NCBI GenBank assembly: GCA_003452695.1
Contig: DMNP01000265.1
Location: 1 to 21,582, forward strand
Reading direction: 5' to 3'
DNA: 21,582 bases
DNA from: Eggerthellaceae bacterium
GTDB lineage: Bacteria; Actinomycetota; Coriobacteriia; Coriobacteriales; Eggerthellaceae
Part shown: piece after piece, positions 4,498 to 21,582 of the stretch
How the letters are laid out: each line of letters starts with the position of its first letter
Position numbering within the stretch: position 1 is the first letter of the stretch
Program-made: the position numbers and the translations under genes
Notes under the pieces: generated by a model
Told to the model about the DNA's origin: nothing
Seen by the model: only the letters and a program-made list of their open reading frames with translations
The model's database searches: none

Positions 4498-4544
4498 CGG
4501 GTAACGGGTCCCGTGCTATGGCAAGCTCCGAAGTGCGGGATCCG

Positions 4545-6446
4545 CTACGAACCCTTCCTGGGATCGGTGGCAGGCAACGTGAAATGTCCGCTTGAGCTAT
4601 CCAGGTGCGGGTTCTGAAGCGGGGCGGCCAAATTTGCAAGAGGATATCGTTTTGCCATGGTGCTGCGATAAGGCTCGTCGGCTAAATCCGAAAGTATTCC
4701 CGGCGCGATGACGGCGAAATCCGGCGTGAGCCGAATCCGCGCGTCTTTCGAATGGAGCTTCAGGCAGAAGTCTATGGAAGCCCAGTCGGGCCGAAGGGAA
4801 AGATCGAATCCTGCAGCTTCCACGAAGGCATCTTTGCGAAAAGCTAGGCAGTACAGGGGTGCGGCAAGGATGTCGCGTGCAAAGCCGAGCATGCGCATGT
4901 ACCCGTCGCTCGAGGATTTCACTCCGGCAAAGCAATGATGCCATATGCCGTTATCGTCTACCGCCAAGCCCGATGAAAGGACGTTGCAGGACGAATCGAG
5001 CACGAGGGCGGTGCTGCATCTCACTCCCGGATGATTCAGGGGCCCTATCAGATCGCCGAGGTCGGCGTTGTTCGCGGGAACTGCCCCCGATCCGAAGACC
5101 GCAATGTAATCGCGCGTCGAACTGGCGATAGCCGTATTGATGTCGTCCCAGCGGCAGCGAATGACCTCCACATCCTTCGGAAGGCGCTTTTCCCAATCGG
5201 TCGCGGGCTGCATGGCGTCCGCGCCAAACGGAATGACGACTGCAGTGTTCTCATGTGCGGCGGGGTACTTCAGCCGATAGGTGAACGCGTTGTTGCCATG
5301 CAGCACCCTGGCATCGATTCCCATGCGCGAAAGGTGCTCTTCGATTGCCAGCATGCCCGCCGTATCTGCATAGGGCTTGCTGTCGCTGTTCGTTGCCGTC
5401 GAGTTTGGGTGCACGCGCCAGTGATACAGGATGCCGGGGACGTGACGCACTTCGCGCGCCACCTCCGACACCTTTAACGTGAGGTCGTAATCCTGCGCCC
5501 CGTTCATGCGCGCAGGGGATAGCTCCACGCGATCGAGCGCCCATCTGCTTACCATAAGCATATGGCAGGCGTAGTTTTGGGTAAGGAGAAAGTCGGGGTT
5601 CCATCCTGGTTTGAAACGCGCGCCAAAGTAGCGGTCTCCATCCCAGAGGTCCTCGTCGCAGAAAAGCAGGTCGCATTTGGGATGCTGGGCAATGACCTTG
5701 GCGTATCGGTAGAGAGCATCGGGCTCGATGAAATCGTCGTGGTCCACGAATGCAAGGTAGTCGCCTCGTGCAACGCGAATGCCCTCGTTGGTGTTTTCGG
5801 GGATCGAGCGGTTTTGCACGGCGATAATTCTGAGGCGCGGATCGTCGAAGGTCGAAATCGCCCTGTCCACTTCGTCGCATGTGCCGCTCGCGTTAACGAC
5901 TATCAATTCCAAATTCGAATAGGTTTGTTCCAAGATGGAGGCGATAGCCCGTTTGAGGTATCGCTCGGGCGTGCGGAAAACGGGCACGATTACGCTGATG
6001 AGACTGTCGAATCCGTCGATGCCGACATGTGTTTGCTGGTAGAAGAGCTCTTGTCGATTTGTTCGGTGCTTTTCGAACCAGGCATGATAGCCCTCATCGC
6101 TGATGGCATCGGTCGTGCGTGCTGCCAGTGTTCGAAAGAGCGGTTCGTCAACCCGACAGGATTTGAAGCTGTACCAGCGATTGGTGCGGCTCTGCGCATG
6201 CAGCGTGCAGGCACAGTAATCGCGGGGGAGGTCGACGGCCACCCTGTATCGCCGCGGTGTGTCCGACGACCGTGCGACCACGTGTGCCGGTACGGGGAAT
6301 CGTCTTCTCTGGCCGCAGGTGGCCCAAAACGATGGTTCGTTGGCGCATTCCGGCGATACGTCGCAGGTGAAGAAGACTCGTGGGCCATCTTCCCAGGGCA
6401 CGACAACGCTTTGCGGCTGCACGTCGATGATTTGCTTATTGGGCAC
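4545..6446 (-). CDS. Tandem-domain GT2 glycosyltransferase (first domain intact, second degenerate)
   Basis: About 633 aa. An N-terminal domain of about 140 residues precedes a classic GT2 domain starting at ISVIVPVFRTPERYL (residue ~150), with the metal-binding DHDD near 235-238, a CDED motif near 263 and AQDYD near 317. The remaining C-terminal ~240 residues look like a second GT-A fold with poorly conserved motifs (FGSGAVP where DxD is expected, then FRKDAFVEAAGFD). This architecture is typical of O-antigen and rhamnan type GT2 enzymes; the transferred sugar is unknown. The GTG at 6446 is preferred because GGAG lies upstream and the gene then overlaps the preceding one by only 11 nt. An in-frame ATG at 6473 has no visible ribosome site. 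The gene is translationally downstream of, and paralogous to, the GT2 gene starting at 8553. Confidence 0.85.
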   Translation of the reverse strand: MPNKQIIDVQPQSVVVPWEDGPRVFFTCDVSPECANEPSFWATCGQRRRFPVPAHVVARSSDTPRRYRVAVDLPRDYCACTLHAQSRTNRWYSFKSCRVDEPLFRTLAARTTDAISDEGYHAWFEKHRTNRQELFYQQTHVGIDGFDSLISVIVPVFRTPERYLKRAIASILEQTYSNLELIVVNASGTCDEVDRAISTFDDPRLRIIAVQNRSIPENTNEGIRVARGDYLAFVDHDDFIEPDALYRYAKVIAQHPKCDLLFCDEDLWDGDRYFGARFKPGWNPDFLLTQNYACHMLMVSRWALDRVELSPARMNGAQDYDLTLKVSEVAREVRHVPGILYHWRVHPNSTATNSDSKPYADTAGMLAIEEHLSRMGIDARVLHGNNAFTYRLKYPAAHENTAVVIPFGADAMQPATDWEKRLPKDVEVIRCRWDDINTAIASSTRDYIAVFGSGAVPANNADLGDLIGPLNHPGVRCSTALVLDSSCNVLSSGLAVDDNGIWHHCFAGVKSSSDGYMRMLGFARDILAAPLYCLAFRKDAFVEAAGFDLSLRPDWASIDFCLKLHSKDARIRLTPDFAVIAPGILSDLADEPYRSTMAKRYPLANLAAPLQNPHLDSSSGHFTLPATDPRKGS

Positions 6447-8553: not shown

Positions 8554-8560
8554 ACCCGTA

Positions 8561-8564
8561 CTCC
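8561..8564 (-). promoter_or_regulatory. Ribosome binding site deciding the GT2 start at 8553
   Basis: On the minus strand GGAG lies 7 nt before ATG 8553. The alternative ATG at 8580 has no such site. Confidence 0.65.
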
Positions 8565-8584
8565 GCCGATGCTTCTGCATCTTT

Positions 8585-8615
8585 CGTATAGTTGCCCGTT
8601 GGATTTCCTGTTCAA
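8585..8615 (-). promoter_or_regulatory. Possible divergent promoter for the leftward GT2 pair
   Basis: On the minus strand TTGAAC (8615-8610) and TATACG (8590-8585) are separated by 19 bp, each matching consensus at 4 of 6 positions. The site overlaps the rightward promoter, so the two could compete. Weak match; low confidence. Confidence 0.3.
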
Positions 8616-8622
8616 GTATAAT
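8592..8622 (+). promoter_or_regulatory. Promoter of the Wzm-Wzt-galactan operon, predicting a leaderless transcript
   Basis: A perfect TATAAT lies at 8617-8622, with TTGCCC (4 of 6 to TTGACA) at 8592-8597 and a 19-bp spacer. Only 8 nt separate the -10 box from ATG 8631, so transcription would start at or within a few bases of the start codon. No Shine-Dalgarno sequence is present between them. Confidence 0.65.
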
Positions 8623-8630
8623 ATGGCGTT

Positions 8631-9494
8631 ATGTCAGAAGAAACGCAATACACCACGGTTGTTTCGAGCGCCTATGTCGCCGTGGATACCGATGCGGCCT
8701 ACAAGCAGGTTACGCAGAATCGATCGGGCAACGAAATCAAGCACAACTGGTTCGTGCTGAAGTCGCTCGTGTCGAAGGATTTCAAGTTGAAGTACCGTCG
8801 CAGCGTGCTCGGCGTGCTGTGGAGCGTGCTCAATCCGTTGCTGATGATGGTTATCTTGGCCATTGTTTTCACCTACGCCTTTAAATTCCAGATTGAAAAC
8901 TTCCCGCTCTACCTTATCTTGGGAAACATATTGTTCGATTTTATGAACAGGGGCACGACCGGGGCCTTGGAGTCGGTTATCGCCGCCCAGTCGCTCATAA
9001 AGAAGATTCGCATAAGCAAGATGATTTTCCCCCTGGAAAAAGTGTCGTTCGAATTGGTGAACTTCGCCATTTCCCTCATAGCTGCAGCAGTAGTGATGGC
9101 CGTTTTCCGCGTGGTGCCCTCTATCCATGCCATCTGGGCCTTGCCGTTCATCGTCGTCGTCACGACGATCTTCGCCATGGGCCTCGGGTTGCTCATCTCG
9201 GCTCTGGCCGTGTTCTTCCGCGACATGATGCATCTGTGGGGCGTGCTCATGACAGCCTGGATGTATTTTACGCCGCTGTTCTATCCCGTGGAAGTGTTGC
9301 CGGATGTCGTTCAGCAGGCCATGTGGTTCAACCCTATGTATCACTACGTAACCTACTTCCGCAGCATCATGATGTGGAACACGAACCCCGGCGGCGTGGA
9401 AAGCCTTCTCTGCCTGGGCATGGCGCTGGTCACGTTCCTCGTGGGCTTCTTGGTGTTCCGCAAGCTGCAGAGCAAGTTCATCCTTTACGTGTAG
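8631..9494 (+). CDS. wzm: ABC-2 type polysaccharide export permease (Wzm/TagG/RfbD-like)
   Basis: 287 aa, the usual length for Wzm-type permeases. After a ~45-residue hydrophilic N-terminus comes the family signature DFKLKYRRSVLGVLWSVLNP (residues ~50-69), then about six hydrophobic spans, with MYFTPLFYPVEVLP near the periplasmic gate and a C-terminal SKFILYV. It is predicted to form the membrane channel that moves a lipid-linked polysaccharide across the cytoplasmic membrane, paired with the ATPase starting 7 nt downstream. The start ATG has no ribosome site but sits just after a perfect -10 box, which suggests leaderless translation. It is the first gene of a five-gene rightward run ending at 14075. 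In mycobacteria the equivalent permease (Rv3783) is clustered with GlfT1. Confidence 0.93.
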   Translation: MSEETQYTTVVSSAYVAVDTDAAYKQVTQNRSGNEIKHNWFVLKSLVSKDFKLKYRRSVLGVLWSVLNPLLMMVILAIVFTYAFKFQIENFPLYLILGNILFDFMNRGTTGALESVIAAQSLIKKIRISKMIFPLEKVSFELVNFAISLIAAAVVMAVFRVVPSIHAIWALPFIVVVTTIFAMGLGLLISALAVFFRDMMHLWGVLMTAWMYFTPLFYPVEVLPDVVQQAMWFNPMYHYVTYFRSIMMWNTNPGGVESLLCLGMALVTFLVGFLVFRKLQSKFILYV

Positions 9495-9501
9495 GGCAAC
9501 C

Positions 9502-10236
9502 ATGAGCGAACCGATCATCGTCATAAACCACGTCACCATGGTGTTCAACATCGCTTCCGAGCAGTTGAACAATATAAAGGAATACTTCATAGCCATTGCC
9601 AAACGCCAGCTGCACTTCAAGGCATTCGAGGCGCTGAAGGATATCGACTTTGTCGTTAACCGCGGAGACCGCTACGGCATCGTGGGCACAAACGGCTCTG
9701 GCAAATCGACGCTGTTGAAAATTATCGCTGGCGTGTTGGAGCCCTCGAAAGGACGCGTGGCCATTGGCGGCACGATAGCCCCGCTCATCGAGCTCGGCGC
9801 CGGTTTCGACTTGGATCTTACGGCGCGCGAGAACATCTATCTGAACGGCGCGTTGCTCGGGTACGACAAGGATTTCATCGACGAGCGTTTCGACAGCATC
9901 GTCGATTTCGCGGGAGTGCACGAATTTTTGGATATGCCCATGAAGAACTATTCGTCGGGCATGGTCGCGCGTGTGGCGTTTTCGGTGGCCACGGCCACGG
10001 TGCCCGATATCCTCGTCGTTGACGAGGCACTTTCGGTCGGCGATTTCCTGTTCCAGGAAAAATGCGAGGCGCGCATCAACGAGCTCGTGGACGAGTTCGG
10101 AACGACGCTGCTGTTCGTTTCGCATAGCATCGACCAAGTCGAGCGCGTTTGCGACAGGGCCGTATGGATAGAGAAGGGCCATATGCGCATGATCGGCGAC
10201 GTGAACGAGGTCTGCGAAGCCTATCGCAACATGTAG
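9502..10236 (+). CDS. wzt: ABC transporter ATP-binding protein for polysaccharide export (Wzt/TagH-like, short form)
   Basis: 244 aa. Walker A is GTNGSGKST (residues 62-70), the signature is YSSGM (150-154), Walker B is ILVVDEA (170-176) and the switch histidine is H208. It is the energy-coupling partner of the upstream permease. The protein ends directly after the nucleotide-binding domain, so it lacks the C-terminal carbohydrate-binding domain of Wzt proteins that recognise a capped chain end. This is like the mycobacterial galactan exporter ATPase and the O-antigen exporters of Klebsiella O2a type; export is therefore probably not gated by a terminal cap (inference). AGGG lies 5 nt before the ATG. 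Confidence 0.94.
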   Translation: MSEPIIVINHVTMVFNIASEQLNNIKEYFIAIAKRQLHFKAFEALKDIDFVVNRGDRYGIVGTNGSGKSTLLKIIAGVLEPSKGRVAIGGTIAPLIELGAGFDLDLTARENIYLNGALLGYDKDFIDERFDSIVDFAGVHEFLDMPMKNYSSGMVARVAFSVATATVPDILVVDEALSVGDFLFQEKCEARINELVDEFGTTLLFVSHSIDQVERVCDRAVWIEKGHMRMIGDVNEVCEAYRNM

Positions 10237-10268
10237 CCCGAATTGCCCGAGGGTCGATTGCGCGAGAT

Positions 10269-10273
10269 GGAGG
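10269..10273 (+). promoter_or_regulatory. Ribosome binding site deciding the GT2 start at 10279
   Basis: GGAGG lies 5 nt before ATG 10279. The longer reading from TTG 10243 lacks a comparable site. Confidence 0.7.
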
Positions 10274-10278
10274 TGCGC

Positions 10279-11148
10279 ATGCCGCTTGTGTCCATCATTG
10301 TTCCCGTTCACGATACGGGTCGCTATGTTGCCGAATGCCTGGCCAGCATCGAGCGCCAGACGTTGCGCGATATTGAAATTATCTGCATAGACGATGCGTC
10401 CACCGACGACAGCTTGGCCATTTGCCGTGCTTTTGCCGAGGGGGACGATCGTTTCGTCGTCGTGTCCCTGCAGCGCAACGAGGGCGCGTCTGCGGCGCGC
10501 AACCATGGCCTGGACGCTGCGCGCAGCGAATACGTGCTGTTCATGGATGCCGATGATTGGTATCCGTCTGATACGACGGTGGAGCGCCTGTACCGGGCCG
10601 CGGTCGAACACGGGGCCCTCATCGCAGGTGGGCAGATGGCCGAATACGATTCGACGACGGGAGCCCTTCGTACCGATTATCGCGATGCCGGGCATTTGTC
10701 GCTGTACCATTTTGCCGGGGAGGGCTTCATCGACTACCGGGATTGGCAAGGCGATCTGGGATACACGCGCTTCATTTACAAAACCAGCCTGCTACGCGAC
10801 AACAACATTCGTTTCCCAGCGCTCACTTGCTACGAGGACCCGCTGTTCTTTGTGAAGGCCATGTTGGCGGCCGGCCGTTTCTATGCCATACCCGAGCCCG
10901 TGTATTGCTATCGGATAAACTACAAGCCCGCGAAGCTGACCGACCAGGCGTTCGAAGATGCCAAAGAGTCCATCGTCGAGCTGCTCGTCATCGCGCATCA
11001 AAACGGTTTGGAACAGCTGAAGGCATGGCTCGTGGAATCGATGCAGTGGTATTTTGCCTATAACATTCTGAATTCGAGGGCCTATAAGCTGGGCGAGGCT
11101 TTGGTTGCCCCGTACCGGAAGGTCGTCGAGCTGCTGAAGGGATGCTAG
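10279..11148 (+). CDS. GT2 family glycosyltransferase (single domain)
   Basis: 289 aa. A GT-A fold begins at once with VSIIVPVHDTGRYVAECLASI (residues 4-24), then IICIDDASTDDS (34-45), NEGASAARNHGLDAA (67-81) and the metal-binding DADD at 90-93. The C-terminal part has CYEDPLFFVKAMLA, the usual ED motif of WcaA/EpsJ-type enzymes, and YCYRIN. It should transfer one sugar to a growing lipid-linked glycan on the cytoplasmic side; the donor cannot be identified. It lies 42 nt after the ATPase gene and 35 nt before the GlfT1-like gene. Its position suggests that it adds a linker or early residue before galactofuranose, but this is inference. Confidence 0.88.
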   Translation: MPLVSIIVPVHDTGRYVAECLASIERQTLRDIEIICIDDASTDDSLAICRAFAEGDDRFVVVSLQRNEGASAARNHGLDAARSEYVLFMDADDWYPSDTTVERLYRAAVEHGALIAGGQMAEYDSTTGALRTDYRDAGHLSLYHFAGEGFIDYRDWQGDLGYTRFIYKTSLLRDNNIRFPALTCYEDPLFFVKAMLAAGRFYAIPEPVYCYRINYKPAKLTDQAFEDAKESIVELLVIAHQNGLEQLKAWLVESMQWYFAYNILNSRAYKLGEALVAPYRKVVELLKGC

Positions 11149-11170
11149 CCGATTTGGGACAAGGAAACGC

Positions 11171-11176
11171 AGGAGG
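11171..11176 (+). promoter_or_regulatory. Ribosome binding site deciding a GTG start at 11184
   Basis: AGGAGG lies 7 nt before GTG 11184. The open frame also contains ATG 11142, overlapping the previous gene, but that codon has no good site and adds 14 residues unlike the family. Confidence 0.75.
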
Positions 11177-11183
11177 CTCGCAC

Positions 11184-12134
11184 GTGCCAAAACAATCCAT
11201 TGCCGCAGTGGTTGTCACCTATAACCGAAAGAACCTGTTGATGCAGTGCATCGAATGCTTGCGCGCGCAGCGCATCGTGCGCGGGCCGGGCACGGGCGCG
11301 CCCTGTTCCGCCGAAGAGGCGCTGGCCATTATCATCGTCGACAATGCGAGCACCGATGGAACGCGCGAGGCGCTGGCAGATTTGGTTGCGGAAGGGGCGG
11401 TGGTCTACCGCAACACGGGCGAGAACCTGGGCGGTGCAGGAGGCTTCAACTACGGCATGCGGCTGGCCGTGGAGATGGGCTTCGAATTCTGCTGGGTGAT
11501 GGACGACGATTGCCTTCCCCGCGCCGATGCCCTGCAGGCGCTTGTCGACGCCGACTACGGACTTCAGGGCGATTACGGCTTCTTGTCAAGTGTCGTTCGT
11601 TGGACCGATGGCGAAATCTGCAAGATGAACGTGCAGCGCCATCCGCTGACGCGCGATATCCGCGATTTCGACATCGATTTGCAGCCGTGCACGCTGGCCT
11701 CGTTTGTCAGCCTGTTCGTGCCCTGCCGCGTAATTCGCGCCGTGGGCCTTCCGATAAAAGACTTCTTCATCTGGACAGACGATTGGGAGTTCACGCGAAG
11801 GATATCGCGCTGCTACGATTGTTTCGTTGTGGGCGGCAGCGTGGTCACACATGCGTCCGCGAACAACGGCGCCGGCACCATCGTGGACGATGTCCCCGAG
11901 CGAATCGACCGCTATAGACTTATCTACCGCAACGACGTCGTGCTGTATCGAGGAGAGGGTTTGTTTGGCTGGGCGTTTCTCGCAGCGCGCGCGGCAAGCC
12001 ATATCGGGCGCGTGTTGCTGCATTCGGATGGCGATAAGCTGAAAAAGGTGGGCATCATAGTGTCGAGTAACATCGAGGGTCTGCGCTTCCGTCCGGAAAT
12101 CGAATTCCCCGTGGATGGCAGGGCGCGGTCCTGA
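11184..12134 (+). CDS. GlfT1-like GT2 galactofuranosyltransferase
   Basis: 316 aa from GTG 11184. The N-terminus IAAVVVTYNRKNLL (residues 6-19) is typical of GT2. IIIVDNASTDGT (49-60) and NLGGAGGFNYGM (81-92) follow; the second closely matches the NLGGAGGF segment of mycobacterial GlfT1 and GlfT2. The metal site is DDD at 107-109 (WVMDDDCLP). An acceptor-side FIWTDDWEFTRR (195-206) and a histidine at 223 complete the catalytic set. GlfT1 adds the first galactofuranose residues to the linker sugar. Here the call rests on motifs, length (Mycobacterium GlfT1 is about 300 aa) and the GlfT2 homologue next door. Other Galf- or Rha-transferring GT2 enzymes share these motifs, so specificity is probable rather than certain. 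Confidence 0.75.
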   Translation: MPKQSIAAVVVTYNRKNLLMQCIECLRAQRIVRGPGTGAPCSAEEALAIIIVDNASTDGTREALADLVAEGAVVYRNTGENLGGAGGFNYGMRLAVEMGFEFCWVMDDDCLPRADALQALVDADYGLQGDYGFLSSVVRWTDGEICKMNVQRHPLTRDIRDFDIDLQPCTLASFVSLFVPCRVIRAVGLPIKDFFIWTDDWEFTRRISRCYDCFVVGGSVVTHASANNGAGTIVDDVPERIDRYRLIYRNDVVLYRGEGLFGWAFLAARAASHIGRVLLHSDGDKLKKVGIIVSSNIEGLRFRPEIEFPVDGRARS

Positions 12135-12214
12135 GCGAGGGCTGCGGTGTTCGAGGTGGATTTACGGAAAAGGCAGATGCCGGCGCAAGGGCGAATGCGT
12201 TGGCTGGCAAGATG

Positions 12215-12218
12215 GGAG
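12215..12218 (+). promoter_or_regulatory. Ribosome binding site deciding the GlfT2 start at 12225
   Basis: GGAG lies 6 nt before ATG 12225. The frame stays open to GTG 12147, but the first 26 residues there are arginine-rich and have no counterpart in GlfT2. The protein starting MQRVKLASVLLQ aligns with the N-terminus of mycobacterial GlfT2. Confidence 0.65.
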
Positions 12219-12224
12219 ATTCGG

Positions 12225-14075
12225 ATGCAACGAGTGAAACTGGCAAGCGTGCTGCTTCAGGCGGAGGACTATCTTTCCGACGATACGGAGCTTTTGTATA
12301 TCGAACAGGCCGGTTCCGCATGCTCGTACGATGTGCAGGAAGGATCGCTGCGCGTGTCGGGCACGGTGGACTTCGCGACGTATTTCAACAGCGTGTCGGT
12401 CGTGAAATGGAAGCGCTACACGGCAATCGACAACATTAAGCTGCATATCGAGCTGGCAGGTGCTGCTGGTACGATTGCGGTGCGGGCTTTGCGCGAGTCG
12501 GACACGGGTGCGCTCGAAGACGATGTGCCGTATGCCCTCGACGTCGAAGCGAGCCCGGACTTCAAAGCCTATGAAATCGAAATGCCCCTCGATTGCGCAG
12601 TTGCAGGTTTCGCGCTGTCTACGGGCCGCTGCATTCGCGTGCGCAGCGCCTATTACTTCACGGAGCTAGGCGAGCGCACCGTTCGACCCGTTTGCCTGGC
12701 GCTGTGCACCACCACGTTTCGCAAAGAAGAATTCATCGTCCCCAACATCGCGCGCATACGCGCGGGCATCTTGGAGGGTGACGAGGATTTGGCGCGGGAT
12801 TTCCACATGTTCGTCGTCGACAACGGGCGCACGCTGGACGCAGATTCGCTGTCTGGCAATGGCGTGACCATCATCCCCAACCCGAACGTGGGCGGTGCGG
12901 GCGGCTTCGCGCGCGGCATGATGGTGGCGTTGGAATCCGACCGCGCCTTCACGCACGTCGTGCTCATGGACGACGATGTGCGCATGCAGGTGGAAAGCTT
13001 CAGGCGGCTTCATGCCTTGCTTTCGCTGGTTACGCCTGCATACGAGCAGGCATGCGTGAACGGCGCCATGCTGCAGCTGGAACACCCTTCGGTGCAGTTC
13101 GAGGACATTGCGTTTGTAAGGCGCATCGGCGGCTACCAGAAGGTGAAGCCGACGTTCGACATGCGTGAACAGGCGAATATGGTGCGCAACGAGCTTATCG
13201 ACGTCGAGGTGGAGAACACCTATGGCGCATGGTGGTTCAGCTGCATTCCGGTCGAGCTCGTTCGTCAGGCGGGGCTGCCGATGCCCTTCTTCATACGCTG
13301 CGACGACGTGGAATACGGCCTGCGCTGCAGGGCTCCCTACATGACCATGAACGGCATCTGCGTGTGGCATGCGCAGTTCACCGGGCGATTCAATGCGGCT
13401 ATCGTGTGCTATCAGTATGCGCGCAACATGACCATCGTCCAGGCGCTGCACGGTGCAAGCGACGAGCGCATGCAGCAACTGCAGTTCTGGCGCATGTTTC
13501 GCTACTATCTGCGCACGATGGATTACGCTGCGGCAGACCTGTGGCTGGATGGGCTGGAGGATTACCTGAAAGGCCCGGAGTTCCTGATGCAAGTCAACGC
13601 CATTGCAACGGTGAAGGCAAACAGCGCCAAGGCAGAGCAGTTCAAACCAATCGGCGACTTGGACCCGGACATCATGGGCAAGCTCGAGATAAATCTGGAT
13701 TGGCTGGAAAGCGGCGAGCACACGCCCCTGTGGCAAAAGATTGCGAACACGCTGCCTCACGACCGCCATTACCTGCCAGATTTCCTGCTCAGCGAAACGC
13801 CGGGCATGCTTGCCCCGGGAGCGGGGGAATGCCATACACCGTGGCGCAAGACGGCCATGCGCAAGCATCTAGTAGCCATGAGCCTCGATGGCAAGCAGGG
13901 GGCAATCCGCACCATCGACCGCGCTCGCTACAAGAGCCTCGTGGCGCGCTATCGCCGGCTCATGCGCGAATACCGTGCGCGCGGCGCCGAGGTCGCCCAG
14001 AGCTATCGCGACAGGATAGGCGATATGACTTCCCTCGAATTCTGGCATGACTACCTGGTACGCCAAGACGTATAA
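12225..14075 (+). CDS. glfT2: GlfT2-like galactofuranosyltransferase (galactan polymerase)
   Basis: 616 aa; Mycobacterium GlfT2 is about 637. The N-terminal beta-rich domain has VDFATYFNSVSVVKWKRYT, matching GlfT2's SFATYFNxxxxxYWRRWT. The GT-A core has NPNVGGAGGFARGM, the metal-binding DDD at 249-251 (LMDDDVRM), the acceptor-site WW at 336-337 (YGAWWFSCIP), DD at 360-361 (FFIRCDDVEYGLR) and H382 (VWHAQF). All are at spacings close to GlfT2's DDD 256-258, W347-W348, D371-D372 and H396. The C-terminal helical part ends DRARYKSLVARYRRLMREYR..YRDRIG, again like GlfT2. The family polymerises UDP-galactofuranose into alternating beta-(1,5)/(1,6) galactan on a polyprenyl-linked primer. UDP-Galp mutase is not in the window. 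It is the last gene of the rightward operon, before a strong hairpin. Confidence 0.88.
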   Translation: MQRVKLASVLLQAEDYLSDDTELLYIEQAGSACSYDVQEGSLRVSGTVDFATYFNSVSVVKWKRYTAIDNIKLHIELAGAAGTIAVRALRESDTGALEDDVPYALDVEASPDFKAYEIEMPLDCAVAGFALSTGRCIRVRSAYYFTELGERTVRPVCLALCTTTFRKEEFIVPNIARIRAGILEGDEDLARDFHMFVVDNGRTLDADSLSGNGVTIIPNPNVGGAGGFARGMMVALESDRAFTHVVLMDDDVRMQVESFRRLHALLSLVTPAYEQACVNGAMLQLEHPSVQFEDIAFVRRIGGYQKVKPTFDMREQANMVRNELIDVEVENTYGAWWFSCIPVELVRQAGLPMPFFIRCDDVEYGLRCRAPYMTMNGICVWHAQFTGRFNAAIVCYQYARNMTIVQALHGASDERMQQLQFWRMFRYYLRTMDYAAADLWLDGLEDYLKGPEFLMQVNAIATVKANSAKAEQFKPIGDLDPDIMGKLEINLDWLESGEHTPLWQKIANTLPHDRHYLPDFLLSETPGMLAPGAGECHTPWRKTAMRKHLVAMSLDGKQGAIRTIDRARYKSLVARYRRLMREYRARGAEVAQSYRDRIGDMTSLEFWHDYLVRQDV

Positions 14076-14114
14076 GAAGGCACATCCCCGTTCATTTCAG
14101 CTTGCGGGGATACT

Positions 14115-14148
14115 GCCCACGGCCCCGCCAACGCGCGGGGCCGTGGGC
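14115..14148. terminator. Perfect 14-bp GC hairpin between convergent genes, likely bidirectional terminator
   Basis: GCCCACGGCCCCGC (14115-14128), loop CAACGC, then the exact complement (14135-14148). It lies in the 116-bp space between the galactan operon (ends 14075) and the leftward licCA-like gene (ends 14192). There is no T-run on either side, so it is not a textbook intrinsic terminator; the convergent position supports the call. Confidence 0.6.
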
Positions 14149-14191
14149 TGCAACCTTGCGGACGTCGTCTCGCTGTCCTGCAGCCGTTCGT

Positions 14192-15964
14192 TTAGCCGCT
14201 TTGCGCGTCGATGATTTCGCGTGCCTTGTAGCCGAACAGCTTCGCGTTCTTGTACCACAGATACAGCCACTCGCCGACAGGTGCGCCGCAGGCGTCTTTG
14301 TACAACGCCCAGACGAACCAGTAGTAGCTGGAGATGGCAATGTAGGACATGCAATGAGCCAGCTCAGCCGGGGTCGGGTCGCGCTGGAAGTACTCGGCGA
14401 GCACGGCGCAGGCCTCGTCGTACGTGTAATCGCTGCAGCAAATGTAGGTGCCCAAGTCGCTGGCATAGTCGGACATGCCCGAATACTCCCAATCTATGAG
14501 GTACATCTTGCCCTGTGAGACGAGCAGGTTCGGGCTGTAGAAATCGTTGTGGCAAAGGCATTGCGGTGTGCCGTCGGATGCCACGTGCGCAGCCAGCCCG
14601 TCGATGAGGTCGAACAGCGTCTTGAAGTCGTCGAACGACGCGCGATGGCGCTCGTCTATAAGGGCGACAATCTCCTTTGCCTTCTCGTACACGTCGAAGT
14701 TCCATTTCGAGCGGTAGCTGCTCTGGTGCAACGTGCGCACCATGTGCAGCGATTCGCGCACCTGGTCCCAGTCATGGTAATCGAGCTCGGAGCAATCGTG
14801 CAAGTAATACGATATCTTCCAGCCCTCTTGCGCGTCCTCGAAGATGAACGTGTCGTCCAGCCCGAGTTTGCGGGCAACCTCTTGCGAAAAGGCCTCTGCT
14901 TCGCGGTTTATGATGGCGTCGGTGCCGGCGCCGGGATGGCGGTAGACGTAGTCGCGACCTGCGGCTTCGAATTTGAAGGATAGGTTTGTCAGGCCCTGGC
15001 TAATGGGCTCGATTCCGCTGATGTCGGCGCGTTCGACGTGCAGCGTCTTGCATATGTTGTCCAGGATGGACGAATCCACGTTTTCGATGAACGCAGGATC
15101 GAACGTTGCCAGCTCGTCGAGCGAGTCGAATTCGTGGATGACCCCTTCGCCATAGGTGCGCATGACCATTGGCAGCTCGGGCAGGTGCTCGATGTAGATG
15201 TCCTCCCAGAGTTTGGTCGCCGTTCCGGGCCGATCGTACTCTTCTTCCAAGATGCGCCGAAACGTCTTGGCATATGAGTCGTCGAAATACGCATGGCCGA
15301 GCATGCCGAATGCGTCCGATCCGCCGATGGTAACGCCCGTAATTCGCTTGCCAGGCCCTGTTTCCAGCAGGTATTCGTCGGTCTTGCCCGCAAAGTATGC
15401 TGCCGAATAAAAGGATTGGTATACGTACGGGTCGAAGACGTTTTCCGTGAAATAGTTGTCAGACGAGCAGATATAGGTGTTGCCGAGCTGCTCGCGCACC
15501 AGCATGAGCGTGGAATTGTTGTTGCGGTGCGCATACTCCTCGTTCACGCGAATCCTCACGCCGAACATGTCCTCCAAATAGAAGAAGCGCTCCTTCATAT
15601 AGCCCACCACGACCGTTATGTCGTCGATTCCGGCTTCTTTCAGCTGACGGATTTGCCGTTCGATGAGCACTTCCCCACGCACGCGCAAAAGGCCCTTGGG
15701 CTGCTCGTAGGAAATGGGCGCGAAGCGTGTCGACAAGCCAGCTGCCATGATAACGGCATTGCGCACCTTATAGGGCTCGAGCATGTCGCGACCCGTTTCC
15801 GTAATGCGGCCATCGGTGTCGAGGGCGCCGGATTTCCTGAGCGCCCGCGTGGCTGTGTTGATGGTGCCAAGCGATACGCCTGCTCTCATCGCTATCGTGC
15901 GTTGCGGCGACCTTCCATGCACCGCAGCGTCGGCAAGGACTAAAAACTGGTTTTTCGTCAGCAT
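14192..15964 (-). CDS. licCA: Winged-helix + LicC-like nucleotidyltransferase + LicA-like choline kinase fusion
   Basis: 590 aa in three parts. Residues 1-65 form a winged helix-turn-helix (TIAMRAGVSLGTINTATRALRKSGAL, then a wing DGRITETG). Residues 68-290 are a nucleotidyltransferase with AVIMAAGLSTRF (70-81), K90 and a metal-binding-type SSDN (167-170), as in CTP:phosphocholine cytidylyltransferase LicC. Residues 310-590 are a choline/ethanolamine kinase fold with SQGLTNLSF, the Brenner motif CHNDFYSPNL (H472, D474, N479) and DWEYSG (D491). Together they could convert choline to CDP-choline, feeding a LicD-type phosphocholine transferase that is not present here. A LicC-LicA fusion is known from Treponema denticola. 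ATG 15964 follows a G-rich tract by 5 nt; ATG 15976 is an alternative. The open frame continues upstream to 16276 through a palindromic repeat, which I do not consider coding. The wHTH may regulate, or merely be structural. Confidence 0.85.
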   Translation of the reverse strand: MLTKNQFLVLADAAVHGRSPQRTIAMRAGVSLGTINTATRALRKSGALDTDGRITETGRDMLEPYKVRNAVIMAAGLSTRFAPISYEQPKGLLRVRGEVLIERQIRQLKEAGIDDITVVVGYMKERFFYLEDMFGVRIRVNEEYAHRNNNSTLMLVREQLGNTYICSSDNYFTENVFDPYVYQSFYSAAYFAGKTDEYLLETGPGKRITGVTIGGSDAFGMLGHAYFDDSYAKTFRRILEEEYDRPGTATKLWEDIYIEHLPELPMVMRTYGEGVIHEFDSLDELATFDPAFIENVDSSILDNICKTLHVERADISGIEPISQGLTNLSFKFEAAGRDYVYRHPGAGTDAIINREAEAFSQEVARKLGLDDTFIFEDAQEGWKISYYLHDCSELDYHDWDQVRESLHMVRTLHQSSYRSKWNFDVYEKAKEIVALIDERHRASFDDFKTLFDLIDGLAAHVASDGTPQCLCHNDFYSPNLLVSQGKMYLIDWEYSGMSDYASDLGTYICCSDYTYDEACAVLAEYFQRDPTPAELAHCMSYIAISSYYWFVWALYKDACGAPVGEWLYLWYKNAKLFGYKAREIIDAQSG

Positions 15965-16070: not shown

Positions 16071-16223
16071 GTTACTAGCCGCAGGTCAGCCACGGTGCCT
16101 GGCAGCGGAAGGGGGTGAGGGCGATTCTGCAGGCACTGAATTGAATACACACATAGGTTAGCCGAAGCCAAGCCCGAATCCCCTTCCGCTGCCAGGCGCC
16201 GTGGCCGACCTGCGGCCAGTAAC
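16071..16223. repeat. Structured repeat, copy A: 44-bp imperfect stem around a conserved core
   Basis: Bases 16071-16114 and 16180-16223 are inverted repeats matching at 41 of 44 positions with no gaps. The interior contains block 1 (16111-16136, 26 nt, from GGGGGTGAGGGCGATTC to GCAGGCAC), a 24-nt variable stretch (16137-16160) and block 2 (16161-16183, 23 nt, GCCGAAGCCAAGCCCGAAT then CCCC). Blocks 1 and 2 recur exactly in copy B (21455-21582), in the same orientation, whereas the stem sequence does not. GGGC/GCCC and GGC/GCC pairings inside the blocks allow an internal loop with conserved bases. It is not a recognised element. It lies between divergent genes. Confidence 0.85.
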
Positions 16224-16233
16224 GCCGCAGGTC
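16207..16233. repeat. Perfect 10-bp hairpin overlapping the right arm of repeat copy A
   Basis: GACCTGCGGC (16207-16216), loop CAGTAAC, GCCGCAGGTC (16224-16233). The first arm is also part of the long stem of copy A, so the two structures exclude each other. GCCGCAGGTC also occurs at 16078-16087, making a direct repeat around the element. Confidence 0.75.
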
Positions 16234-16274
16234 GCTGCACGCGGCCCGCCTCGCATCGCAGGCCCGCGAGCAGC
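16234..16274. repeat. Imperfect hairpin immediately downstream of copy A
   Basis: GCTGCACGCGGCC (16234-16246) pairs with GGCCCGCGAGCAGC (16261-16274) with one bulge and one mismatch around a 14-nt loop. It extends the structured tract to about 200 bp. Confidence 0.45.
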
Positions 16275-16334
16275 AATCCATGTGAATATTTGGTCGCAAT
16301 GAGGCGAACGTGGCGGGTGGCGGCTGCGACCTTG

Positions 16335-16340
16335 TAGAAT
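16335..16340 (+). promoter_or_regulatory. Possible -10 box for the MBOAT-SGNH pair
   Basis: TAGAAT (5 of 6 to consensus) lies 73 bp before ATG 16414, with no recognisable -35. If it is real, repeat copy A lies upstream of the transcript; if transcription starts left of 16071, the repeat is part of the 5' leader. Confidence 0.25.
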
Positions 16341-16413
16341 AGGTGGGCTAAATCGATGACAAGGGCGAATGGCGCGGCAGGGGCCGTGCTTCGCTCGTGG
16401 AAGCACAGGTTGG

Positions 16414-17991
16414 ATGCAGTTCTATTCGTTGCAATTCGTGGTGTTCGTAGCGGCGCTCATGGCGCTCTACTACGCCGTGGGACGCTTTGCCAAGCGCGGG
16501 CAATGGGTGGTGCTGCTTGCCGGCAGCTTGGGGTTCTACCTGTTCGCGGGCTGGCAGAATCTGTTCTTCATTGTGCTCACGTCCGTGTCCACCTGGCTCG
16601 TGGGGCTGGCGTTCGCGCGCATAGACGCGCGTTGCGATAAAGCGCGCGCGACTGCGGCCGACCGCGCGGAGAAAAAGGCCATAAAGGCCCGCTTCAAGCA
16701 CCGGAAATGGCTGGTGCTGCTGGCAGTCATGCTCGTGAACTTCGGCGTGCTCGGCTACATAAAGTACTGGAACACGCTTCTGGCCGGCTTCGGCGCCGAC
16801 GCCACGTTCCTGGCGTCGCACCTGCTGCTTCCGCTCGGCATATCGTTCTACACGTTCCAATCCATCGGATACACCATCGACTTGTACAACGGCAAGTACG
16901 CGCCCGAGCGCAACTATGCCAGATATCTGTTGTTCGTGTCGTGGTTCCCGCAGCTCATCCAGGGCCCCATCAACCGCTTCGACGACATGGCGGCGCAGCT
17001 GTACGAACGCCACAGCTTCGATATGCAGGAAACGCGCAGGGCGCTTTTGCTCATCCTGTTCGGCTTGCTGAAGAAATACGTCATGGCCGACACGCTGGTA
17101 TCCACCATATCGGTGGCGCTCGACAACATGAGCGTGGGCACGCCGGGTTCGGTCGTGGCTTTCGGCATCCTGCTCTACACCTTCCAGCAATACGGCGATT
17201 TCTCGGGCGGCATCGACATCGTGCGCGGCGTTTCCGAGCTGTTCGGCATCCGCATGGCACCGAACTTCAACCAGCCGTATTTCTCGGTGTCGCTTTCCGA
17301 TTTCTGGCGGCGCTGGCACATGTCGCTTGGCGCGTGGATGCGCGACTACGTGTTTTATCCGCTGGCGGTGCGCCCGTCGCTCCTGAAGCTGAACAAGTGG
17401 GGCACGGCTCATCTGGGCAAGCATGTGGGCCGCACGCTTTCGGCTTGCATCGGCAACGTCGTGGTCTTCCTGCTGGTGGGCCTGTGGCACGGCGCCGAGA
17501 CGCATTACGTGCTGTGGGGTTTGTACAACGGCGTTATCATAGCGGCGGGCGACATGATGAAACCGCTGTTCGTGGCACTCGGAAACAAACTGCACATAAA
17601 CGTGGAGGGTCGCGGATACCACCTGTTCGCCATCTTGCGCACCTTCTTCCTGGTGAACATCGGGCGCTACTTCGACCGCCTGTCGGATTTCGGCGATTGC
17701 CTGCAGGGGTTCTACAACACCATCTTCAATTTCAACCTGGCCGATTTCGGCACGTGGTTCCAGACTTATTCCATCTTGCACGGCTGGGTGCTGCAGACGC
17801 TCGCCGCCATCGCGGGCGTTATCGTCTTCATCGTAAGCATCCAGCGCGAACGGGGGGTGGACGTGCGGGCGCGCGTGCTGGCGCTTCCGCTGGTGGTGCG
17901 CTTGCTGCTGTACACCTTCTTGGGTGTGCTGGTCATTGCGGGCGTCGTCATAACGAAGACGAGCGGGGTGTTCCTGTATGCCAACTTCTAA
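16414..17991 (+). CDS. MBOAT family O-acyltransferase (AlgI/DltB-like)
   Basis: 525 aa from ATG 16414; an in-frame ATG at 16369 would add 15 residues. MQFYSLQFVVFVAAL resembles the usual AlgI start, hence the choice, although the ribosome site (AGG, 4 nt before) is weak. Roughly ten membrane spans are visible. Family motifs include LPLGISFYTFQSIGYTIDLY, FPQLIQGPINRF, FWRRWHMSLGAWMRDYVFYPL (H302) and the catalytic-type LWHGAETHYVLWGLYNG (H359). MBOAT proteins of this type move acyl (usually acetyl) groups across the membrane to extracytoplasmic polysaccharide with the help of an SGNH partner. The next gene overlaps this one by 14 nt and fits that partner role. The acyl donor and target are inferred. 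Confidence 0.92.
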   Translation: MQFYSLQFVVFVAALMALYYAVGRFAKRGQWVVLLAGSLGFYLFAGWQNLFFIVLTSVSTWLVGLAFARIDARCDKARATAADRAEKKAIKARFKHRKWLVLLAVMLVNFGVLGYIKYWNTLLAGFGADATFLASHLLLPLGISFYTFQSIGYTIDLYNGKYAPERNYARYLLFVSWFPQLIQGPINRFDDMAAQLYERHSFDMQETRRALLLILFGLLKKYVMADTLVSTISVALDNMSVGTPGSVVAFGILLYTFQQYGDFSGGIDIVRGVSELFGIRMAPNFNQPYFSVSLSDFWRRWHMSLGAWMRDYVFYPLAVRPSLLKLNKWGTAHLGKHVGRTLSACIGNVVVFLLVGLWHGAETHYVLWGLYNGVIIAAGDMMKPLFVALGNKLHINVEGRGYHLFAILRTFFLVNIGRYFDRLSDFGDCLQGFYNTIFNFNLADFGTWFQTYSILHGWVLQTLAAIAGVIVFIVSIQRERGVDVRARVLALPLVVRLLLYTFLGVLVIAGVVITKTSGVFLYANF

Positions 17992-19396
17992 TGCCACGCG
18001 TCGCCTGAAAATCGTTGCGAAGGTGCTTGTTGCCATTGCCTTCTTTGCCCTTATGAACGCACTGCTCACCTTCGTGCTGGAACCGTACGGGTCGCGAAGC
18101 CAGCTGGCTTGGCAAGACTACGAGAAGCAGAAGAGCCTGGACACCATCCTCGTCGGCACCTCGTGCGTGGAATACGGCATCGACCCCGCCGTCATCAACA
18201 AGGCCTGCGGGATAAAGTCGTACAACCTGGCGTCTCCGAGCCAATCCATCGAGGAATCATTCGTGGGCATACGCACGGCCTACGAGGATCATCACATTAC
18301 GCGGGCCATATTGGGGCTGTCCTTCAACTCGCTTACCAGCAGCACGCCGCCCAATCCCGGCAGCGCCTACATGCACAATCGCAGCCTGTACGCCACGCCG
18401 CTCGAAACGTTTGCCGTGACCAACGAGTTCCTGTGGCACTACGGTGCCGCCACGAGCGCCTATTCGCTGAACTTCCCGTTTCCCTGGGCGTCGAATCCCA
18501 TTCGCAGCCTGCGCATTCCCACGTTGGCCGAAAACGTGAAGGCCAAACTGGAGCATGCGGACGTGGCGGCCATGGCCGAACGCCTGGAATCAGGCTGGCA
18601 CTACGTCGGTCTCGGACACGGCGCCCGCAAGGGCACGATGGATTTGAACGGCAGCAACGTGCGCCAGGTGAACAAGGCCGAAGACGAAGAGGAAGTGGCG
18701 GGCGCTGCAGCCATCGAGGACACGGCCACGCTCGACCCCGACCGCGAGCGCACGATACGCGAAATATGCGCTTACTGCGACGAGCGCGGCATCGACCTGC
18801 TGGTCATCATGCCGCCCCTGCCATCCCACGACGTGTTCGACCGCGATTCCACGTACTTCGAGACCATTTCGTACATCGAGGACCTGTTCGCCGACATGGG
18901 CAAGCCGGTATACGACTTCAACCTGGCCGAAGACGATCTGTACGACCTGAAGCCCGATTATTTCGCCGACAACTGGCATTGCAACCTGAAGGGCGCGCAG
19001 GTGTATTCGCGCTCTTTTGCCAAGTTCCTGAAGGCCTACATGGCAGGCGAAAACGTTGCCGACCTGTTCATGACGCCCGAGCAGAAATACGCCGAGCTGG
19101 ACTACATCGCGGCAGTGTTCGCCGAGTCGTCCGTGCAGCCCGACGGCGTGCACCTGAAATGGCATGCGGTTGCAAGCCCCGAGCGCCCGGTGGAATATCG
19201 GGTGATGCTGAAACTGGACAACGACGCCGACGCTGCCGACCCCGCCAACTGGAAAGCGGTCAGCGACTGGTCGAACGCAACCGAAATCGCGTACCTGCCC
19301 GAGCGGCAGGGCGTCGTGAAGCTGCGCATTTGCGCGCGCTTCGTCGGCTCCGATGCCGAATACGACCGCTATCGCACCGTTACCGAGTTCTGGTAA
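17978..19396 (+). CDS. Membrane-anchored SGNH-like acyltransferase partner with extra C-terminal beta domain
   Basis: 472 aa. One N-terminal membrane span (residues ~11-37, KIVAKVLVAIAFFALMNALL) suggests a protein anchored in the membrane with its body outside. GTSCVEYGIDP places a candidate nucleophile at S62, and DNWHCNLKGA (D331, H334) supplies the Asp/His pair typical of DltD, AlgJ and AlgX. The GSL-like middle motif is less clear. After FMTPEQKYAELDY (~365) comes a domain of about 90 residues (~386-472) with aromatic and alternating hydrophobic residues (VEYRVMLK, VKLRICARFVG), which looks like a fibronectin- or Ig-like beta sandwich and may bind glycan. ATG 17978 overlaps the MBOAT stop by 14 nt, implying coupled translation. 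It converges with the sugar transferase gene, 42 bp between ends. Confidence 0.78.
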   Translation: MPTSNATRRLKIVAKVLVAIAFFALMNALLTFVLEPYGSRSQLAWQDYEKQKSLDTILVGTSCVEYGIDPAVINKACGIKSYNLASPSQSIEESFVGIRTAYEDHHITRAILGLSFNSLTSSTPPNPGSAYMHNRSLYATPLETFAVTNEFLWHYGAATSAYSLNFPFPWASNPIRSLRIPTLAENVKAKLEHADVAAMAERLESGWHYVGLGHGARKGTMDLNGSNVRQVNKAEDEEEVAGAAAIEDTATLDPDRERTIREICAYCDERGIDLLVIMPPLPSHDVFDRDSTYFETISYIEDLFADMGKPVYDFNLAEDDLYDLKPDYFADNWHCNLKGAQVYSRSFAKFLKAYMAGENVADLFMTPEQKYAELDYIAAVFAESSVQPDGVHLKWHAVASPERPVEYRVMLKLDNDADAADPANWKAVSDWSNATEIAYLPERQGVVKLRICARFVGSDAEYDRYRTVTEFW

Positions 19397-19438
19397 GAGG
19401 CAATCCGCGTGCCATGGAATCCCGCGGGCGACGAGGTA

Positions 19439-20170
19439 TTACTTCCGATGTGATGCATCATCGCCATCTTCTACGTAGATGCCCTCTTGGGCGAACACGG
19501 TGGCGAAGGTTTTCAGGAACACCTTCGCGTCCAGCGCGAAGCTGCGATTGCGCACGTATTCCACATCCAGTGCCAGGCGGTCGTGCCAAGGTAGCGAGTT
19601 GCGCCCGTACACGGCCGCATAGCCGGTAACGCCCGGCTTCACGGTTAGCTTCAGGGCTTCATCTCCCTGGTAAAGCTCCACTTCGCGACGCAGGTCGGGG
19701 CGCGGGCCCACCACGCTCATGTCGCCGCGCAACACGTTCAGGAACTGCGGCATCTCGTCCAAGCTGGTCTTGCGCATGAAGGCTCCCACGCGCGTCATGC
19801 GCGGGTCGTCGGCGCCGTTGTAGGTGGATCCGTCCTCCATTACCAGGTCTGGTGCGTTCACGCGCATCGATCGCAGCTTGAACATGATGAAGTCGCATCC
19901 GTTCAGGCCAACGCGCGGTGCGTTGTAGAACACGGGGCCGCCATCCTCCAGTTTCACTGCAATGCCGCAGGCGGCAATGGTCGCCCCCACGACGGGCAGC
20001 GCCAGCAAGCCGATTGCGACATCGCAGGCCCGCTTGCCGAAGCGCTCGTAGAACGATTCCGCCGCTCTGCTGCGCAGGCCCTCTGCGATGGCCGCGCCCG
20101 CCGATGCTCCAGCCAGCGCCAGCACAGCTCCGGCAGCTATGCTGGAACCTTTCTTGCCGCAGATGCTCAT
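19439..20170 (-). CDS. Initiating polyprenyl-phosphate sugar-1-phosphate transferase (PglC/WbaP-type monotopic)
   Basis: 243 aa. The bacterial sugar transferase domain starts at KRACD (residues 46-50), then a re-entrant membrane helix with P59 ([19 protein letters not shown]), [18 protein letters not shown] (97-102), the catalytic-type [25 protein letters not shown] (135-159) and [14 protein letters not shown]. These enzymes move a sugar-1-phosphate from UDP-sugar to undecaprenyl phosphate and so start a repeat unit. The N-terminal ~45 residues include an extra small-residue hydrophobic stretch (11-29). Its length is close to PglC/WcaJ-C rather than to full WbaP with four extra helices. The ATG shares an ATGA overlap with the end of the aminotransferase gene, so the two are translationally coupled and may act on the same UDP-amino sugar. 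Confidence 0.93.
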
Positions 20171-21393
20171 CGCATGCCCTCCGATTCCAAGTCGGCCTTG
20201 CAGGAGCGAAACGCATCGCAGACGGTTTTCACGTCGTCGTCTGTCAGCAGCGTGTGCAAGGGCAGGGTAATCTCGTTTTCAAACTGAGCGCGCGCGTTGG
20301 GGAAATCGTCCATATCGAAGCCCAGGGCCCGATAGGCGCTGAGCATCGGCAGCGGCTTGTAATGCACGTTCGAGGACACGCCGGCGTGTGCCAGGCGCTT
20401 TATCAGGGCGTCGCGGAACGCGCGGCTTCGGCCTTCAAGTCGCACGAGCATCAGGTGCGCGCTCGAAGCGAAGCCGTCGTTTTGCGGGTCGCCCTCGTGA
20501 TGCGCGAGCAGAACAGCTCCCGTGCCGGCCAGCCCTTCTGCATAGCTATCGACTATGCGATGGCGCCGCTTCAGCAGGGCGGGATAGCGGCGCAGCTGCG
20601 CCAAGCCCAAGGCTGCCTGGATGTCGGTCATGTTGCATTTCCAGCCTGGAAAGGCAATGTCGTATTCCCACGACCCGGCGCGGTCCTTCGAAAGCGCGTC
20701 CTTGCTCTGGCCGTGAAGCGACATCAGCATTACCGCATGATACGCCTCTTCGTTATCCAAGGCGCCTTTGCGCCAGGTCAGCGCGCCTCCTTCGGCAGTG
20801 GTCAGGTTCTTCACGGCATGGAACGAAAACGCCGTAAGGTCGGCGGCCTGGCCCGATTGCACTCCATGGCGCACAGCGCCAAGCGAATGCGCCGCATCGG
20901 CCAGAACGGGCACGCGGTCGAAACGCGCCTGGCATTCGTTCGCGGGCCTCCAAAGCTTCGCGGCCGATTCCACGACATCGTACAGCCGGTCGTAGTCCAC
21001 CATGCGCCCGGCAATGTCGACCGGGATAATGGCCTTGGTGCGCGGGGATATAAGCCCTGCCAGCTGGTCGTAGTCCATTTCGAAAGAACCCGGGGCAACG
21101 TCGCACAGCACGGGGCTCGCCCCCACATGGCAGATGCACGAGGCCGACGCCGTGTACGTATAGGCGCTCGTTATAACCTCGTCTCCTGGGCCGATTCCCA
21201 TCAATCTCAGGCCGCATTCAAGGGCTGCGGTTGCAGAGCTCAGGCAGGCCACCGCTTCCGTTCCGCAGAACGAAGCAAGCTCGCCTTCGAACTGCTTGGT
21301 CTTGGGCCCAGTGGTTATCCATCCGCTTTGCAGGGCGTCGACGACCTCGTCGATTTCCGCTTGCGTTATGTCGGGCGGCGAAAAGGAAATCAC
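20167..21393 (-). CDS. DegT/DnrJ/EryC1/StrS-type UDP-4-keto-sugar aminotransferase
   Basis: 408 aa from GTG 21393. Family landmarks in this numbering are ISFSPPDITQAEIDEVVDAL...GWITTGPKT (N-terminus to ~31), SSATAALECGL (52-62), ADAAHSLGA (165-173) and the PLP Schiff-base lysine in SFHAVKNLTTAEGG (K195). PglE- and ArnB-like enzymes with this SFHA(V/I)KN segment aminate a UDP-4-keto-6-deoxy sugar at C4 using glutamate. GTG 21393 is preferred over GTG 21399 because GGAGG is 5 nt upstream; for 21399 the spacing is too short. The partner 4,6-dehydratase and any acetyltransferase are not in the window. Product identity (for example a 2,4-diamino-trideoxy hexose) is inferred from the coupled initiating transferase. 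Confidence 0.92.
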   Translation of the reverse strand: MISFSPPDITQAEIDEVVDALQSGWITTGPKTKQFEGELASFCGTEAVACLSSATAALECGLRLMGIGPGDEVITSAYTYTASASCICHVGASPVLCDVAPGSFEMDYDQLAGLISPRTKAIIPVDIAGRMVDYDRLYDVVESAAKLWRPANECQARFDRVPVLADAAHSLGAVRHGVQSGQAADLTAFSFHAVKNLTTAEGGALTWRKGALDNEEAYHAVMLMSLHGQSKDALSKDRAGSWEYDIAFPGWKCNMTDIQAALGLAQLRRYPALLKRRHRIVDSYAEGLAGTGAVLLAHHEGDPQNDGFASSAHLMLVRLEGRSRAFRDALIKRLAHAGVSSNVHYKPLPMLSAYRALGFDMDDFPNARAQFENEITLPLHTLLTDDDVKTVCDAFRSCKADLESEGMR

Positions 21394-21398
21394 GCGCA

Positions 21399-21403
21399 CC
21401 TCC
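21399..21403 (-). promoter_or_regulatory. Ribosome binding site deciding the aminotransferase GTG start
   Basis: GGAGG on the minus strand lies 5 nt before GTG 21393 and overlaps the alternative GTG 21399, arguing for the shorter protein. Confidence 0.7.
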
Positions 21404-21421
21404 CTCGTTCACTTCGCGCCT

Positions 21422-21427
21422 ATTGTA
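21422..21427 (-). promoter_or_regulatory. Possible -10 box for the aminotransferase-sugar transferase pair
   Basis: TACAAT on the minus strand (5 of 6 to consensus), 28 bp before GTG 21393. No clear -35. Repeat copy B begins only 27 bp further upstream, so its stem would lie at or just beyond the -35 region. Confidence 0.4.
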
Positions 21428-21454
21428 CAGTAAGCCGTGCTTGTTGCTGCCCAT

Positions 21455-21582
21455 GGCCCGGCCAGAGGCGGGGGCGGGGAGGGGGGTGAGGGCGATTCTG
21501 CAGGCACAAATCCTGTTAAATGCCAAAGCAAAGCCGAAGCCAAGCCCGAATCCCCCTTCCCGTCCCCGCCGCTGGCCGGGCC
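21455..21582. repeat. Structured repeat, copy B (cut by the window end): 31-bp visible stem around the conserved core
   Basis: Bases 21455-21485 and 21552-21582 are inverted repeats matching at 28 of 31 positions; the stem may continue past the window. The interior carries the same two blocks as copy A: block 1 at 21482-21507 (26 nt identical) and block 2 at 21533-21555 (23 nt identical), separated by 25 variable nt (24 in copy A). The stem (GGCCCGGCCAG..., G-rich) is unrelated in sequence to the stem of copy A apart from the G-run next to the core. Confidence 0.85.

Follow-up and report, generated by a model that had tools for sequence, protein, structure and literature searches.

Two hairpin copies in the window

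The window, by which we mean the whole 21,582-nucleotide stretch analysed here, carries large glycosyltransferase-like genes, an ABC transporter pair and a nucleotidyltransferase-kinase-like gene in its first part (1-15960, translations read by eye), perhaps a surface polysaccharide region. Beyond them lie two copies of a palindromic element, the second cut by the window end, with the following parts.

16071..16223, + strand: element copy 1, whole hairpin (inverted repeat; fold z -11.6; orientation set by the GCGATTCTGCAGGCAC block)
16071..16120, + strand: variable 5' arm of copy 1, with an unpaired GA step near the core (pairing runs 50 nt outward with few mismatches)
16121..16136, + strand: conserved 5' core block of copy 1, GCGATTCTGCAGGCAC (direct repeat; columns mostly invariant or near-invariant in alignment A1)
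16137..16159, + strand: free apical loop of copy 1, between the two common blocks
16160..16173, + strand: conserved 3' core block of copy 1, AGCCGAAGCCAAGC (direct repeat; alignment A1)
16174..16223, + strand: variable 3' arm of copy 1 (inverted repeat; pairing)
21455..21582, + strand: element copy 2, cut by the window end (inverted repeat; match to model R1)
21492..21507, + strand: conserved 5' core block of copy 2 (direct repeat)
21532..21545, + strand: conserved 3' core block of copy 2 (direct repeat)
21546..21582, + strand: variable 3' arm of copy 2, incomplete, as the window stops at 21582

The original prediction described two copies with common inner blocks and a long stem in each. A repeat finder recovered both blocks, one of 30 nt at 97% identity (16107-16136/21478-21507) and one of 24 nt at 100% (16160-16183/21532-21555). 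Inverted arms were likewise found in copy 1 (16071-16122/16172-16223, 52 nt, 88% complementary) and in copy 2 (21455-21493/21544-21582, 39 nt, 85% complementary), the latter stem length being a minimum because the copy is seen only up to the window end. On either strand, both copies fold better than 200 of 200 shuffles (z -11.6, -9.1, -9.2 and -6.4), and two matches to the core 18-mer, at up to three mismatches, fall in the window, where 0.02 are expected. Model R1, in which the window copies are included, matches copy 1 at 16105-16189 (85.8 bits) and copy 2 at 21476-21561 (79.7 bits).

The stems had also been called completely different. Each copy does have a stem of its own, but the 5' arms are weakly alike: aligned outward from the core, they agree at 13/26 positions outside the common block, where shuffled arms give 8.9 (P 0.043). 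This was one of three overlapping stretches tried against the shuffled null; the other two, which include part of the common block, gave 10/14 (P 0.075) and 17/30 (P 0.015).

Further copies and host range

A first scan with an exact 19-mer of the core returned 23 stretches (L001-L023), and 22 of these were set aside on reading. The true element was in L007, from an Eggerthellaceae bacterium of goat jejunum (genome G001). The peptide VEGDSAGG, which we take to be a gyrase-like motif, is encoded by 19 of the 23 stretches; the core 19-mer coincides with its codons, by which naive pattern searches are misled.

Genome G001 gave 19 pattern matches at up to three mismatches and none for the reversed pattern. 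The second block was present in 14 of the 19, each with its own stem; among the G001 rows, L027, L038, L040 and L042 were excluded and L030 is truncated at a contig end. A 16-mer with at most one mismatch matched in 10 of the 15 genomes of the genus of G001, a few matches being gyrase-like genes, and genome G002 alone had 67 such matches, many as head-to-head pairs.

Searches with R1 (33 copies) placed the element in at least 20 of 138 genomes of the family of G001 and in at least 29 of 396 genomes of the class Coriobacteriia, 12 of them already among the family's 20 and 17 new. A second model, R2, searched against 396 genomes of the phylum, scored at least 11 with the element, all already drawn for the family or class searches. 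All these genome counts are lower bounds under strict filters, and 29/396 is a low count, since R2 scored six class genomes that R1 had missed. Together the searches suggest a range limited to Coriobacteriia. Copy numbers reach at least 22 in G001, at least 15 in G013 and at least 9 in G134. Several contigs end in or beside an element (the window at 21582, the end of G004:C33, the start of G004:C97, and G001:C9 and C38), so assemblies probably miss copies.

Further copies, which the original prediction had proposed to look for, are thus numerous in relatives, and most of them are paired. The two hairpins of the window are members of a large and apparently undescribed family dispersed in genomes of gut Coriobacteriia. 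A sparse search of the open-licence literature found no description of such a family. No Rfam family reached its gathering score in the window, and 16 class loci gave two matches, neither on the element; a low-threshold Rfam scan of copy 1 yielded 16 sub-threshold matches, mostly miRNA precursors. Copy 1 had no match in plasmid or phage collections, and two exact patterns (the compact core and the core of the window) had none in viral contigs.

A conserved core inside a covarying stem

Pairing was analysed in two alignments. A1 holds 33 of 34 elements in one register (the cut element L035 was omitted; where the second window row ends was decided by hand); 83.0% of its pair cells are standard, compared with 64.5% after shuffling and 34-46% when slid, and two-sided changes occur at 16 of 18 basal pairs. 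In the class-wide A3 (53 copies), which was fitted to the model, 90.8% of pair cells are standard against 57.6%, two-sided changes occur at 17 of 18 basal pairs, and covariation extends to the small inner helices. The core consensus is roughly GCGATTCYGCAG ... CGARGMCMAGC, flanking the free loop; it comprises GC, GATT, the short covarying helices CT/AG and GGC/GCC, and fixed unpaired GCA, GA and CCAA. In many copies GA stands opposite GA next to the core. The arms, about 15-50 nt long, are largely free in sequence and keep their pairing. The proposed anatomy of a conserved internal loop, a covarying helix and a free apical loop is thus borne out by both alignments.

The original prediction went on to read such a stem as structured RNA. 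Conserved structure and covariation, by which a functional structured RNA is judged, were both found; DNA template switching can give the same signal, and the covariation does not prove that the RNA is functional, since the arms are also altered by apparent copying from one to the other. The corresponding explanation is a structured non-coding RNA whose stem is kept by selection through compensating changes, with copies spreading as duplications are tolerated. It has the strong covariation in its favour, inner helices included, together with the G.A step and the fixed unpaired bases of the core, and the lack of an Rfam match against it; given the observations on context and joint arm change below, we regard it as unlikely.

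Genomic context and insertion into murF

Among 71 elements, 48 are flanked by gene calls on each side and free of any overlapping ORF, in all four arrangements of the neighbours (++ 14, -- 13, +- 11, -+ 10), and 21 overlap an ORF call of at least 90 aa, mostly raw calls. No family of neighbouring ORFs recurred beside many elements among the loci. The largest neighbour cluster was ABC-transporter ATPases (five ORFs in five loci); the other clusters were of two or three ORFs each, in part drawn from loci that are shared or duplicate. This context fits a mobile repeat more readily than it fits a leader, terminator or gene-bound signal, and the absence of a preferred place relative to genes counts against a structured RNA.

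The gene murF is present in all 15 genomes of the genus. In G009 and G010 it contains the element in frame, arms included, and in G005 it contains an element of another subfamily, located in the same linker. The remaining 12 of 15 have no element, among them G014, which resembles G009 in the aligned stretch, and G013, which resembles G005; orthologous loci without the element, another point raised in the original prediction, thus exist. The extra codons span the hairpin and both arms, with borders uncertain by a few bases. As neither arm is seen in the relatives, the arms seem to travel with the inserted unit. An in-frame insertion of this kind is a further point against the RNA explanation. 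Intergenic empty sites were also found, too diverged for their borders to be placed.

The same comparison opposes the alternative offered in the original prediction, that an element inserts into, or copies, palindromic targets. In one form of that idea, insertion at a nick is followed by snap-back copying, which makes the stem an inverted duplicate of the flank. The unrelated look of the stems of many paralogs would fit, as would one site at which the 3' arm is longer in G004 (L124) than in G001 (L039). The murF relatives, however, have by eye neither arm, bar a few bases at the outer edge whose placement is ambiguous, and the stems of orthologs drift after insertion. With the arm data of the next section, we consider a target-made stem highly improbable. 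The snap-back stem was an early proposal and was set aside as the main reading after the murF comparison.

In L051 (G013) and L057 (G007), around 1400-1660, the upstream flank and the 5' half of the element are tandemly duplicated, a half element preceding the complete one; the event is of the same kind in the two genomes. At the place in L225 (G004), within 950-1250, that corresponds to L138 of G001 there is another hairpin; its stem is ~30 bp long and its core differs, and it may represent a further subfamily.

Element ends and the arms of paralogs

Outside the group formed by the window, G001 and G004, short tags were seen at the stem ends: A precedes the stem in 45/65 elements, G is the first stem base in 52/65 and G follows the stem in 43/65, counts in which copies from one genome are not independent. 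The window/G001/G004 group (33 elements) shows no end tag. In all, 33 + 34 + 31 elements entered this comparison, after removal of repeats and of those too near an end. The original prediction of variable ends, unlike those of a MITE or IS remnant, holds for the window, G001 and G004, while the stems of most other genomes have short tags on their flanks. Outside the same group, 12/37 arm lengths equal 28 nt. Both the tags and the recurrent arm length speak against stems made from their targets. Direct repeats at the ends were not significantly longer than expected (mean length 3.54 vs 3.29, largest null 3.58); direct repeats of at least 7 nt near the ends occurred in 4/65 copies against 0.43 expected.

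The arms of the 19 paralogous copies in G001 are faintly alike by position. Likeness was 0.632 at nt 4-12 (0.456 shuffled), 0.353 at nt 12-20 (0.316) and 0.303 at nt 20-30 (0.259), above all shuffles in three of three stretches. The nine copies in G004 exceeded all shuffles in the innermost stretch only and not beyond nt 12. Such faint positional likeness of the G001 arms is expected of divergence rather than of fresh capture, and it too argues against a target-made stem.

Joint change of the two arms at shared sites

Copies at the same site are shared by G009/G010, G001/G004 and G159/G243. At five shared sites, 25/103 stem pairs had changed in both arms against 12.6 expected, and 21 of these 25 are still paired; the register of two of these site pairs was adjusted by hand, L272/L099 was not comparable and L285/L277 (G009/G010) was left out. 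Over all eight shared sites the count is 25/188 against 12.7 expected. Only L139/L128 and L282/L279 are significant alone among the five counted pairs, and three of the eight sites (L081/L080, L278/L281 and L039/L124) have single-arm changes only. The murF copies of G009 and G010 differ by an equal 3-nt length in both arms, and L271/L270 differ by a run of three. At 2/11 shared sites examined, L282/L279 and the tkt-yitT site (L320/L321), the two loci carry the element in opposite orientations although their flanks are collinear.

Template switching between short inverted repeats has arm homogenisation and spacer inversion among its outcomes, according to parts of one study (PMC8604942), and sections of another argue that it is able to create and maintain RNA hairpins (PMC8794818). 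Template switching between the arms would explain the joint changes, the matching 3-nt change and the in-place inversions alike. Selection acting through compensating point changes may have produced some of the joint change, but scarcely the equal length difference, and an apparent inversion could also result from two insertions made at one site in opposite orientations. The matching 3-nt change and the opposite orientation would not be produced by RNA selection alone, which again disfavours the structured RNA.

Candidate mobilising genes

Genes of the Y1 (RAYT) transposase were found in 71 of 138 family genomes, in 15/20 with elements versus 56/118 without (P 0.029, hand-counted). The idea that these enzymes mobilise the hairpins as REP-like repeats of the same genomes draws on this association and on the palindromic, dispersed form of the copies, many of them head-to-head in G002. 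Yet none of the 28 Y1 loci fetched (27 distinct, 20 in element genomes; a part of all Y1 genes) contained an element by model search, and 16 of the 20 scanned (L172-L191) carry other palindromes, for example GGGGAGTCTCCCC, which are likely separate REP-like families. Moreover, G001, G013 and G134 show no Y1 gene despite at least 22, 15 and 9 element copies. We judge mobilisation by Y1 to be very unlikely. A reverse transcriptase, also considered as mobiliser, was rejected for lack of association (3/20 element genomes versus 27/118 others, P 0.56).

No mobilising gene was therefore found among the Y1 and reverse transcriptase candidates or the neighbouring ORFs. An autonomous form would carry a gene, either in its apical loop or between two copies. 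None was seen when the fetched loci were scanned for the 5' core (109 sites, of which 78 had a partner arm close by and 31 were read by eye), nor among the ORFs that separate the copies in L320 and L321, also inspected by eye.

Comparison with known systems

Rickettsia palindromic elements are palindromic and can sit in frame inside a protein gene. Likened by description alone, they resemble the murF copies in being in frame and differ in their hosts. MITEs are small, non-coding and dispersed, and have conserved terminal inverted repeats. The present element is likewise small, non-coding and dispersed, and is probably moved by an enzyme in trans; conserved terminal inverted repeats were not found, conservation lying mainly in the core and the bases nearest to it, and direct repeats of the kind that a target-site duplication would leave were seen at few ends (4/65 copies with at least 7 nt). 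Integron attC sites have conserved outer recombination boxes and go with gene cassettes.

REP elements and REPINs, with their RAYT enzymes (see also PMC3116915), are the nearest known kind. As the parts of the sources that we drew on describe them, they resemble our element in being high-copy, short, palindromic intergenic repeats, often paired and some within genes, and further in unpaired tags at the stem and in stem irregularities, which in REPs matter for recognition (PMC3733652, PMC8266576). Their stems, in the same parts, span 6-13 bp, carry GTAG or CGTC tags and mostly enclose small loops (PMC3733652, PMC8266576). The Coriobacteriia element differs in its arms of about 15-50 nt and largely free sequence, its conserved part being the internal core. 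Neither of the two defining REP features that were tested was found: in place of a 6-13 bp stem with a terminal GTAG or CGTC tag there are A/G tags or none, and no link to a RAYT (Y1) gene was seen, with 0 elements in the 28 Y1 loci. Repetitive hairpin elements of sponge mitochondria, as portrayed in part of PMC2800124, are dispersed between genes and thought to be mobile, with conserved stems and varying loops, the reverse of the Coriobacteriia element in stem conservation.

Discussion

We conclude that the hairpins are probably copies of a palindromic mobile element that is dispersed and non-autonomous in Coriobacteriia, recognised by its core and with arms kept as a shape. Mobility is suggested by the dispersed copies, the conserved structure, the insertion of a unit into murF, the joint change of the arms and the inverted orientation at shared sites. 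The unit would move as a folded single strand, DNA being more likely than RNA, and a putative enzyme would recognise the internal loop, plus the end tags in most genomes. Between moves, template switching during replication may copy one arm onto the other. Stems would then drift fast yet stay paired, and paralogous stems would end up looking unrelated. Taken as one specific scheme, in which transposition reads shape through the internal loop and, in most genomes, the end tags, while template switching rewrites the nearly unconstrained arms as pairs, this mechanism is offered tentatively, as a possibility to which we give somewhat less than even weight.

The element reverses the usual rule for small mobile repeats, with variable ends and a kept middle. 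Its many natural copies per genome offer a chance to watch the paired rewriting of palindrome arms, which bears on how near-perfect stems are maintained. The findings also carry a warning that covariation alone may arise from a DNA process, and identifying the mobilising enzyme would be new biology.
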